Source: Methanocella arvoryzae MRE50
GTDB taxonomy: Archaea; Halobacteriota; Methanocellia; Methanocellales; Methanocellaceae
Reading direction: 5' to 3'
Length of the DNA: 64,000 nt
Assembly: GCF_000063445.1 (NCBI RefSeq)
Contig: NC_009464.1
Location: 558,001 to 622,000 of the forward strand
Positions 6,576 to 45,465 of this stretch are shown in pieces; the first letter of the stretch is position 1; each line of letters begins with the position of its first letter. The notes below the pieces were generated by a model, which was not told where the DNA came from, ran no database searches, and saw only the letters and a list, made by a program, of their open reading frames with translations. A program made the position numbers and the translations under genes.

Positions 6576-7403
6576 TTAGCGGTCAGCCGTGACTGCAGCG
6601 TGCCGGAGGACGGCCGTCTCGATCTCGCCCTTGAGGATGTCGGCGGCTTCCTGTACAGTGGCTCTCTCCACGATGATGGCGCGGAGCGCAGCCGTCATAA
6701 GGTCAGGCCGACGGTGCTGGAAGATGTTCCGCCCGAGGGAAATGCCGATGCAGCCGGCAGTCATGGCGTCGTCGACCATCTGCAGCACGTCGACGTCGCT
6801 GTCGCACCGGGGGCCTCCGGCGATGACGACAGGCACGGGGCAGGCAGCCGTGACCAGGCTCATAGACCTGATGTCGCCAGTGTAGGGACATTTCACCAGG
6901 TCTGCGCCGAGCTCTCCGCCGATTCTCGCCGCGTGGGCGATCTCGTCAGGGGAGCCGGTAATGCCCTTGCCTCTCGGGTAGGTCATCGCCAGCAGCGGCA
7001 TACCCTTCTCATCGCAGAGATCTGCGATCTCGCCGAGGTCTCCCAGCATGTCGTGCTCTGATGCGCAACCGCCCACGTTGACGTGGACAGATACGGCATC
7101 TGCTCCGAGCCGGATAGCGTTGTCCACGCAGGAAACGAGCACTTTCTTGTTCTTGTCCTCAGCGTACCTGGTGCCGCCGGAAATGTGCATGATCGTGCCG
7201 CATTTCAGAGGTGTGCTGAGCGACTTAATGAGGCCCTTATGCAGCAGAACTGCGCTGGCGCCGCCATTTTCGACCAGCGAGATCGTCCTGTTCATGTCCA
7301 CCAGGCCTTCGATAGCCCCTTCGCTTACCCCGTGGTCCATCGGTACAATGACCGCTTTGCCGGATTCCAGTATCCTGTTCATCCTGATTGTCTTGCCATC
7401 CAT
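6576..7403 (-). CDS. 2-amino-3,7-dideoxy-D-threo-hept-6-ulosonate synthase (ADH synthase)
   Basis: This 275-residue class I aldolase-like TIM barrel of the archaeal FbaB/AroA' family carries out the first step of the methanogen route to 3-dehydroquinate and so to aromatic amino acids. Motifs are KAVIVPMDHGVSEGAIEGL near the start, VSVHVNVGGC, LAMTYPRG, DLVKCPYTGD with the Schiff-base lysine, and VVIAGGP. The start MDGKTIRMNRI at 7403 matches the family; 16 extra codons upstream do not. Two TGTACA hexamers lie upstream of its presumed promoter (7635-7656). A fructose-bisphosphate aldolase of the same family is the main alternative. Confidence 0.87.
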   Translation of the reverse strand: MDGKTIRMNRILESGKAVIVPMDHGVSEGAIEGLVDMNRTISLVENGGASAVLLHKGLIKSLSTPLKCGTIMHISGGTRYAEDKNKKVLVSCVDNAIRLGADAVSVHVNVGGCASEHDMLGDLGEIADLCDEKGMPLLAMTYPRGKGITGSPDEIAHAARIGGELGADLVKCPYTGDIRSMSLVTAACPVPVVIAGGPRCDSDVDVLQMVDDAMTAGCIGISLGRNIFQHRRPDLMTAALRAIIVERATVQEAADILKGEIETAVLRHAAVTADR

Positions 7404-7634
7404 GTGAAACACCCTTTCACGACATGGCCGGCGCTGACTATCACAAAACACGCAAACGATGCTTGTCTGGCGAGAGTTAGCGCAGCCAGCATCGTCTAGT
7501 TAAACCAGAAGCAGAAGCCAAAGCTAAAGCTAAGCTCGGACTGAACAGCGTTGTTGAGCCGATAGCATATGGCCTCCATCATCATTGATAGTATGTGGGT
7601 TTTAGAATATATTAAAGATTGTGCCATTCTGGTA

Positions 7635-7656
7635 TGTACATGCACGTAGTTGTACA
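7635..7656. promoter_or_regulatory. Pair of TGTACA boxes upstream of the ADH synthase promoter
   Basis: TGTACA occurs at 7635-7640 and 7651-7656, 16 bases apart. On the minus strand a TATA-like stretch (TTTAATATATTC, about 7603-7614) sits between the boxes and the gene. The hexamer is the TRP-box core bound by the archaeal regulator TrpY, and three more copies precede trpB2 at 40875-40910. The 5' leader to the start at 7403 would be long, about 175 bases, so the assignment is tentative. Confidence 0.35.
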
Positions 7657-7723
7657 GTCAACTGAAAACGGAGTTTAAAGGGTATAGCTTGACTTCTCTC
7701 GTTCAGAATCCCATGAACGAATA

Positions 7724-7931
7724 CGAACGCTGCGCTGTGCCAATCCTCACAGATTCCACTGATTACTACAGATTCCACAGATAGATACACGATTACACAG
7801 AAACATCAGAATGCTATTGTCCTTGATTATCTGAAGTAAATTTGTGGAATCTGTTTCGATCTGTGGAATCGTTCTGTGGAATCGGTAACTATCTGTGCAA
7901 TCTGTGAGGGTCTGGCACAGCGCAGCGTTCG
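7724..7931. repeat. Word-iterated long inverted repeat, family A (CACAGATT / AATCTGTG)
   Basis: This 208-base imperfect palindrome is bounded by CGAACGCTGCGCTGTGC (7724-7740) and its exact complement at the right end. The left arm repeats CACAGATTCCA-type words and the right arm repeats TGTGGAATCTG. It lies between hisE and the ADH synthase leader. Related elements occur at 31449-31843 and 49988-50143, and a right half at 10370-10425. Confidence 0.85.
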
Positions 7932-40730: not shown

Positions 40731-40874
40731 TCCAGCAGGATTATCGCTATCTTCCACGATTACCTTTTTAGCCGTAACTACTCCTCAATCGCCCGATTTT
40801 TTAACGTCAGTTCCTACGTTCAAAGTTCAGCCCAATCTATCGATCTTGGGCTGTCGAAGGTATGTTTATATACA

Positions 40875-40910
40875 TGTACACCTATGTACATCATAGTATT
40901 TCATTGTACA
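40875..40910. promoter_or_regulatory. Three TGTACA TRP-box-like sites over the trpB2 promoter
   Basis: TGTACA occurs at 40875-40880, 40885-40890 and 40905-40910, at 10- and 20-base intervals, so all lie on one helix face. A TATA box (TTTATATA, 40865-40872) abuts the first site. The archaeal repressor TrpY of Methanothermobacter binds TGTACA TRP boxes and controls the trp operon and trpB2, so these are likely operators for a TrpY-like regulator. Confidence 0.75.
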
Positions 40911-40930
40911 TGTTTATACAAGGTGATTAT

Positions 40931-42244
40931 ATGGTAACCGATGTGATAAGAGTCAACCTCGACTCCGACGAAGTCCCCGACCGCTGGTATAACATAGTCC
41001 CGGACCTCCCTGAAAAGCTCCCGCCCGCCATCCACCCGGGCACCAGGGAGCCGCTAAAGCCGGAAGAGTGGGAAGGCCTGTTCCCTAAGGCACTGGTCAG
41101 GCAGGAGCTGTCAGAGGAGCGCTACATCCGGATACCTGAAGAAGTCAGAGAAGCCTTGATCACCATCGGCAGGCCGTCGCCCCTGTACCGGGCCCGCAGG
41201 CTCGAGAAGGCGCTGGGCACCCCGGCCAGGATCTACTTCAAGAGGGAAGACCTGTCCCCGGCAGGCTCGCACAAGCCCAACACAGCCATCGCCCAGGCTT
41301 ACTACAACATGGCAGAAGGCGTGGAGAACCTGACTACGGAGACTGGCGCAGGCCAGTGGGGCTCTGCCCTGAGCTCCGCTTGCGCCCTCTACGGGCTGAA
41401 GTGCACAGTTTTCATGGTCCGCTCCAGCTACGACAGCAAGCCTTACCGCAAGTTCGTCATGAAGATGTTCGGCGCCGACGTATACGCGTCTCCGAGCAAC
41501 GTCACCGAGTTCGGCCGGAAAGTCAATCGGGAAGACCCGACTTGCAGCGGGAGTCTGGGCATCGCCATCAGCGAAGCCGTCGAGATGGCGGTGAAAGGCG
41601 AGAAGACGAAGTACGCGCTGGGCAGCGTGCTCAACCACGTCATGCTCCACCAGACAGTCATCGGCCTGGAAGCCCAGAAGCAGCTGGAAAAGATCGGGGA
41701 GAAGCCGGACACTTTGATAGCCTGCGTGGGCGGCGGCAGCAACTTCGCCGGATTTACATTCCCGTTCATCCACGATAAGCAGAAAGGCAAGAACGACGCG
41801 AAGTTCATCGCTGTCGAGCCGCAGAGCGTTCCATCGCTCACAGGGATGAAGAGCGGCGAGTCGAAGTACGACTACGATTTCGGCGATACCGCAGGCATGA
41901 CCCCGATGCTCAAGATGCACAGCCTCGGCCACGACTTCATGCCCAGAGTCATCCATGCGGGCGGCCTCAGGTACCATGGCATGTCCCCTCTCGTATCCCT
42001 GCTGTACAAGAACAATGTCATCGAAGCCGAAGCCCTGCACCAGGCCGAGACATTCGCCGCCGGCAAGCTGTTCGCGGAGACAGAAGGCATCATCGCCGCA
42101 CCGGAGTCCTGCCATGCCATCGCCTCCGCCATCAACCACGCGAGAGCGGCGAAGAAGGCCAACGAGGAGAAGGTCATAGTATTCAACCTCAGCGGCCACG
42201 GGCTGCTGGACCTGCAGAACTATGCGGACATGCTGAAGTTTTAG
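40931..42244 (+). CDS. trpB2: Tryptophan synthase beta chain, type 2 (TrpB2)
   Basis: This 437-residue PLP enzyme has [32 protein letters not shown] with the PLP lysine, [26 protein letters not shown], and a C-terminal [10 protein letters not shown]. The extended N-terminus (about 80 residues before RPSPL) is typical of TrpB2 rather than TrpB1. It condenses indole with serine, perhaps scavenging free indole. ATG 40931 follows AAGGTGAT, and the open frame upstream runs through the operator. Confidence 0.95.
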
Positions 42245-44429: not shown

Positions 44430-45465
44430 CTATATTACGCCCATCTTCTTCAGGTGCTCGACCGCTGCAGGCGTAGCCATGCGACCCCGAGGCGTACGAT
44501 TAATGAACCCGATCTGGATCAGGTACGGCTCATATACGTCCTCGATAGTGTCCGTTTCCTCGCTCACGCTGACTGCCAGCGTCTCGGCGCCGACCGGGCC
44601 GCCACCATAGTCCTTGATGATCGTTTTGAGAATCCTGCGATCCATGGCATCCAGACCGAGGAAATCGACGTCGAGCTTATCGAGCGATTTTCGGGCGATC
44701 CCGGTATCGATCACGGTCTTCTTTTCCACGTGGGCGAAGTCTCGTACCCTGCGGAGCAGCCTGTTGGCAATCCTGGGCGTGCCCCTCGAGCGGGCTGCGA
44801 TCTCCATGGAGCCGTCAGGGGTGATTTCCATGTTCAGGATCTTGGCAGACCGGTCGATAATGGTCTTTAAATCCTCAGGAGTGTAGAACTCAAACCGCAG
44901 CGACATACCGAACCTGTCACGGAGCGGTGGGGATAGCATACCGGCTCTTGTGGTAGCGCCGACTAATGTAAATCTCGGCAATTCTAATCGAATAGAGCGG
45001 GCGCTCGGGCCTTTGCCGATGATGATGTCGATCTCGAAGTCTTCCATGGCCGAGTACAGGATTTCCTCTACCACGTGGCTCAGCCGGTGGATCTCGTCGA
45101 TGAAGAGGACATCGCCCTCTTTTAGGTTGGTGAGAATTGCAGCCAGGTCGCCGGCACGCTCGATGGCGGGCCCCTGAGGTGATGCGAATGTTCGCGCCCA
45201 TCTCTCTGGCGATGATGTTGGCCAGCGTGGTCTTGCCGAGGCCGGGAGGGCCGTAGAGCAGGACGTGATCGAGGGACTCGTTGCGCATCTTCGCGGCGTC
45301 GATGAAGACCCGCAGGTTCTCCTTGATCTTCTTCTGGCCGATGAAGTCCTCAAGGCTCTTCGGGCGCAGGCCTTCGAAGACCCGCTCCTCCCGATCGCCC
45401 TCGATCTCCTCAGGCGATACGATGCGCTCTTCTCTGGCCTCATTCTCTTCGTCAACATTGATCAT
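44430..45465 (-). pseudogene. ruvB: Holliday junction helicase RuvB, interrupted by a one-base frameshift
   Basis: The gene is complete but split between two frames. From ATG 45465 the first frame gives [12 protein letters not shown] and Walker [15 protein letters not shown], up to NIRITSG. From there the second frame gives [16 protein letters not shown], Walker [34 protein letters not shown] and the C-terminal winged helix RTPRGR. The switch falls in a CCCC run at 45171-45174; removing one base yields a normal RuvB of about 344 residues. It may be a sequencing error, a real mutation or a phase-variable run. The rest looks under selection. Confidence 0.9.

Follow-up and report, generated by a model that had tools for sequence, protein, structure and literature searches.

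Phased TGTACA boxes upstream of trpB2 in Methanocella arvoryzae: a probable tryptophan operator of the TrpY/TRP-box kind

Introduction

In Enterobacteria, tryptophan-responsive repression at trp promoters is exerted by TrpR via tandem palindromic sites. The TrpR protein family and its operator are unrelated to TrpY and the TRP box, so that the likeness is one of function alone. In work on Methanothermobacter TrpY, the TRP-box consensus is reportedly TGTACA. According to PMC6737238, TrpY is a tryptophan-responsive repressor whose TRP boxes lie between trpY and trpE, and the TrpY homologue of Thermococcus neither binds its trp promoter nor regulates trp. Regulation of trpB2 by TrpY is the topic of a paper cited by title in PMC3729527. 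Another archaeal regulator, Tar (TK0271, Thermococcales), resembles this system in that aromatic biosynthesis operons are controlled by aromatic amino acids. It differs in being an activator, with the Thermococcus TrpY homologue uninvolved (PMC6737238).

The locus described here lies in a window of 64,000 nucleotides from the M. arvoryzae genome, a single contig of 3,179,916 bp. Methanocella and M. thermautotrophicus share TGTACA boxes at the promoters of the trp operon (trpEGCFBAD in M. thermautotrophicus) and of trpB2, as well as a TrpY-family wHTH protein, probably ACT-like in its C-terminal part, in which residue 2 is tryptophan. Also shared with the TrpY system is the 10-bp spacing, which is seen in box pairs next to trpY in Methanobacteriaceae relatives. 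Unlike in M. thermautotrophicus, trpY in Methanocella is unlinked to trp and is without boxes of its own, trpC heads the trp operon, the arrays are longer (4-5 slots), and the regulon adds paaK and an ECF transporter, or an LctP-like permease in M. arvoryzae.

The array upstream of trpB2

The product of trpB2 scores 651.8 bits against TIGR01415 (cut-off 518.85), with its ATG at 40931. The gene and the elements before it are, in window positions:

40865..40872, + strand: TATA-like element TTTATATA, identified from the sequence and from its place relative to the boxes and the start codon
40875..40880, + strand: TRP-box 1, TGTACA, exact match; slot kept in relatives
40885..40890, + strand: TRP-box 2, TGTACA, exact match; slot kept in relatives
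40895..40900, + strand: degenerate box AGTATT in the 10-bp register, near the transcription start expected from the TATA position
40905..40910, + strand: TRP-box 4, TGTACA, exact match
40915..40920, + strand: TRP-box 5, TATACA, one mismatch, in the 10-bp register (pattern search)
40931..42244, + strand: trpB2 coding sequence (TrpB-like PLP enzyme), over the cut-off for TIGR01415/PRK12391

The array has five slots of one helical turn (10 bp) each, with exact TGTACA in slots 1, 2 and 4, and spans from 2 bp past the TATA-like element to 10 bp short of the ATG. The initial annotation had described three TGTACA boxes near a TATA box, at intervals of 10 and 20 bp. Exact matches at 40875, 40885 and 40905 bear this out, but the description understated the array, in which two more register slots, at 40895 and 40915, hold degenerate boxes. 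In genome coordinates, the pattern search matched the trpB2 boxes at 598885-598920, allowing for a single mismatch. TGTACA occurs 16 times in the window, where 7.6 occurrences are expected. Three copies within 36 bp were seen in none of 100 dinucleotide-preserving shuffles of the whole 64 kb, and three copies in the 200 bp upstream of the trpB2 start in none of 5000. The three TGTACA boxes before trpB2 are real and are probably part of a tryptophan operator.

Conservation of the array

Each genome pattern search was paired with a reversed-pattern control. With up to three mismatches allowed, the pattern TGTACA-N4-TGTACA-N4-TGTACA has 6, 8, 4 and 8 forward matches in four Methanocellales genomes (G000-G003), where its reverse has 0, 1, 1 and 0; the first of each series (6 against 0) is the whole M. 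arvoryzae genome. Based on this N4-spaced pattern, a 0-10-30 pattern and the neighbouring genes, the arrays could be assigned to the genes that they precede. These are trpB2 and a trpC-led operon in all four genomes, and paaK, an ECF-type S component and an ECF-type ATPase in three of the four each. The boxes of the fourth genome (G003:C10:61005-61040) were located with the 0-10-30 pattern.

The same arrangement was sought, as four TGTACA-like boxes at spacings of 7 to 16, in genomes outside those that had defined the pattern. In the DNA upstream of trpB2 in 40 genomes of other families of the phylum, spacing 10 has a mean z of 3.50, with 31 of the 40 above 2, though genomes within one family are related and such counts are not independent events. 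All other spacings from 7 to 16 reach a mean z of at most 1.19. Spacing 10 also stands out upstream of the S component gene (mean z 4.70; 15/15 genomes) and of trpE (mean z 3.48; 10/16 genomes). In control DNA the value is 0.78 for the stretches before trpY and 0.49 for DNA from elsewhere in these genomes. In G006, G130 and G073, trpE follows immediately after trpB2 on the same strand and lacks its own array, as expected if the two genes form one operon served by a single array. In some genomes the central box is the TATA-like TGTATATAT itself, as in TGTACAATAATGTATATATATGTACA of G100. The operator is not universal, since phased boxes were not found in one large family (f5; trpB2 loci L032-L061) in which trpB2 and TrpY-family proteins are both present; the TrpY of this family probably has another target or operator. 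The 10-bp-spaced operator recurs at genes for tryptophan biosynthesis, salvage and transport across several methanogen families.

Other arrays and TGTACA sites in M. arvoryzae

Phased arrays in this genome also precede the trpC operon, paaK and an LctP-like permease gene. The pattern search places the first of these at 2039337-2039372, in front of trpC-trpE-trpGD-trpF-trpB-trpA, where the sequence is TGTACA ACAT ATATCG TTAA TGTATA ACAT TGTACA. The array at 44616 stands before paaK, a phenylacetate-CoA-ligase-like gene, and the array at 1254429 before a gene for an LctP-like permease that has a tandem paralogue. Of these two paralogues (L016:1673-5136), the second alone has a TGTACA array; the first, which has none, is divergent from a TrmB-type regulator gene.

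A pair of boxes also lies near a gene whose product starts aromatic amino acid synthesis in archaea (window positions):

6576..7451, - strand: 2-amino-3,7-dideoxy-D-threo-hept-6-ulosonate (ADH) synthase gene; open frame, start codon uncertain
7635..7640, no strand assigned: TGTACA before aroA' (ADH synthase), paired with 7651 at a spacing of 16 bp
7651..7656, no strand assigned: second TGTACA of the pair, exact match

The ADH synthase product scores 307.9 bits against TIGR01949 (cut-off 299.45). The pair at 7635 and 7651 makes this gene a possible further member of the aromatic regulon, but its membership is uncertain, and the spacing of 16 bp puts the pair outside the 10-bp register.

Upstream of an aldehyde dehydrogenase gene there are four TGTACA with 11-bp spacing that form an inverted repeat, TGTACAGAGTTTGTACATAGTTTGTACAAACTCTGTACA (G000:C1:2636612-2636650; L018). 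A TrmB-like gene lies downstream of the aldehyde dehydrogenase gene, convergent with it. With its other period and its place before aldehyde dehydrogenase, this cluster was not counted among the sites of the trp regulon, and it looks like a different operator made of the same hexamer. Two further kinds of repeat were observed. Repeated AATGTATTACATTGTA palindromes, perhaps a controller site, lie upstream of a gene like those of DNA cytosine methyltransferases (L026; G000:C1:668033). Repeats of the CACAGATT/ACAGATTCCACAGAT type, flanked by the motif GCGCTGTGC, occupy intergenic DNA at two unrelated genome places (window 7690-7930, and about 1600-1800 of L024) and are possibly an intergenic repeat family.

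The TrpY-family protein

The reference trpY sequences were taken from Methanobacteriaceae and a few other MAGs. TrpY of Methanobacteriaceae has 167 residues (MWEKI...DRR...ISIRQ...) and matches the NCBIfam TrpY family; its gene is divergent from trpE, and the intergenic region between them contains box pairs at 10 bp, for example TGTACA-TTAT-TATACA. M. arvoryzae has a single TrpY homologue (G000:C1:3003630-3004127), which scores 223 bits against NF053754 (cut-off 180; match at 3003633-3004121) and is 38% identical to the Methanobacteriaceae protein, collinear over the full length. It begins MWSEIVDKF... and keeps both W2 and the DRR that is invariant in the HTH region. Its C-terminal part scores 15.7 bits against Pfam ACT, below the cut-off of 27. 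Its gene is not adjacent to trp genes but has tRNA-modification-like neighbours, and no TGTACA boxes were found upstream of it; M. arvoryzae thus differs from the autoregulated arrangement of the Methanothermobacter type, a divergent trpY-trpE cassette with shared boxes. The initial annotation had supposed that the operator code is shared with a distant methanogen order, and had proposed as checks a search for a TrpY homologue, a search for further TGTACA clusters and a comparison of trpB2 upstream regions across Methanocellales. Neither of the two outcomes that it had named as refuting, a genome with no TrpY homologue and orthologous trpB2 genes with no conserved hexamers before them, was observed. 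The sharing of the code is supported by the encoded TrpY-family protein together with the boxes conserved upstream of trpB2 in Methanocellales and well outside this order.

TrpY is single copy in Methanocellales, and W2 is present in all four of their proteins, as it is in each non-haloarchaeal member of the family with a readable start. Haloarchaeal-like members with a readable start have F2 in place of W2 (L087-L116; f9, f13, f18, f20, f27, f29), and several genomes with such proteins are without trpB2. The two features hint at an altered role of TrpY in these organisms. Since 231 of 247 genomes from the phylum encode a member of the TrpY family, and since the Thermococcus homologue is not a trp regulator, the presence of the family is in itself weak evidence. 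Co-occurrence of TrpY and arrays was tried as a test of the regulator and was uninformative, given the near-ubiquitous family and the fact that the genomes lacking TrpY are mostly incomplete; one genome, G030, is consistent with it.

The ECF transporter and paaK

The small membrane protein whose gene is preceded by an array in three of the four Methanocellales genomes (MKSKDIVIVGILL...) has no match in NCBIfam, in Pfam (above cut-off) or in PDB. In G100 and G222 a single open frame encodes it together with a double ECF-type ATPase, and in G138 its gene is directly upstream of a two-domain ATPase gene; the ECF-type ATPase itself scores 330 bits against TIGR04520 (cut-off 315). Based on this fusion and adjacency, the protein is an ECF S component. 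Since it matches no described family, its substrate is suggested by its regulation, and a role in taking up tryptophan or a precursor would fit the ECF system. No S component was found in the M. arvoryzae genome, where the LctP-like permease is under an array instead. Aryl-acetate salvage is known methanogen chemistry, and paaK fits such a role. Phased TRP-box arrays precede this so far unnamed transporter, whose S component stands with or is fused to a double ATPase, both in Methanocellales and in at least four other families of the phylum. There is about an even chance that it is the archaeal importer of tryptophan or its aromatic precursors and that, together with paaK, it extends a TrpY regulon that is conserved in several methanogen families and spans synthesis as well as salvage and uptake.

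Proposed mechanism and alternatives

The same box, in the same 10-bp register and at conserved positions, stands before trpB2, the trp operon, trpE, paaK and the ECF transporter genes, and a TrpY-family protein is encoded. The trpB2 boxes probably serve as an operator in a tryptophan regulon of TrpY/TRP-box type. TrpY is most likely the protein that binds the arrays, a link made for Methanocella because operator and targets are shared, not because of gene linkage or the presence of the family. The effect would be repression and the signal tryptophan. TrpY-family dimers would bind the palindromic TGTACA hexamers, one dimer per palindrome, and the one-turn spacing of the hexamers would align several dimers on one face of the DNA, with the ACT-like C-terminal part sensing tryptophan as the co-repressor. 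Since the Methanocella array extends from behind the TATA, over the expected start site and into the leader, occupied boxes would stop recruitment of RNA polymerase. Where the TATA element is itself the central box, as in some other genomes, binding of TBP would be blocked.

It is unlikely that the arrays, as a real tryptophan or aromatic operator, are read by a factor other than the TrpY homologue. In favour of such a factor are the Methanocella trpY, which is neither trp-linked nor box-bearing, the f5 TrpY-family proteins without arrays, and the different role of the Thermococcus homologue (PMC6737238). Against it, the same box and spacing occur between trpY and trpE in Methanobacteriaceae, and in the related Methanothermobacter it is TrpY that has been proven to bind. 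The single copy of TrpY in Methanocellales and the W2 kept outside the haloarchaeal-like members count against it as well, and the only array-linked regulator candidate is the TrmB-type gene beside the LctP-like permease pair. It is improbable that the array-bound regulator activates. Archaeal activator sites are normally upstream of TATA/BRE; the boxes here overlap the TATA element or come straight after it and extend over the expected start, which is the position of a repressor. The model for activation would be Tar, with the positive control of Thermococcus aromatic genes (PMC6737238).

A 10-bp phasing could also arise with no specific operator, from bending of the DNA or from the way archaeal histones are positioned on AT-rich promoters. 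The TA step at each box centre does recur every 10 bp, a pattern that favours histones too, but the whole hexamer repeats and not just the TA, the arrays stand before one functionally related set of genes, and trpY promoters and other DNA of the same genomes are without arrays; this origin is therefore very improbable. Chance clustering of a palindromic hexamer, for which the somewhat high frequency of TGTACA in the window might speak, has a negligible probability given the shuffles, which never reproduced the cluster, and the arrays kept in held-out genomes; it was rejected on the conservation found in relatives.

Significance

Tryptophan operators bound by TrpY are a known kind of regulation, of which the present arrays are probably a further, broad occurrence. 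What is likely to be new is the breadth of the array, whose spacing stays fixed over much of the phylum, together with a regulator unlinked to trp and the prediction of an ECF importer for tryptophan or aromatic compounds; a literature search that covered few subscription papers returned no report of such a spacing, regulator or importer. The regulation of amino acid metabolism in archaea rests on very few cases. TrpY has been shown in one genus, and the Thermococcus homologue proved to act otherwise. With a fixed 10-bp operator at the trp genes of much of the phylum, it can now be tested directly which TrpY homologues act on trp, including in the genetically tractable Methanosarcina. From the arrays, functions can also be predicted for a transporter family that lacks annotation and for a CoA ligase of salvage.
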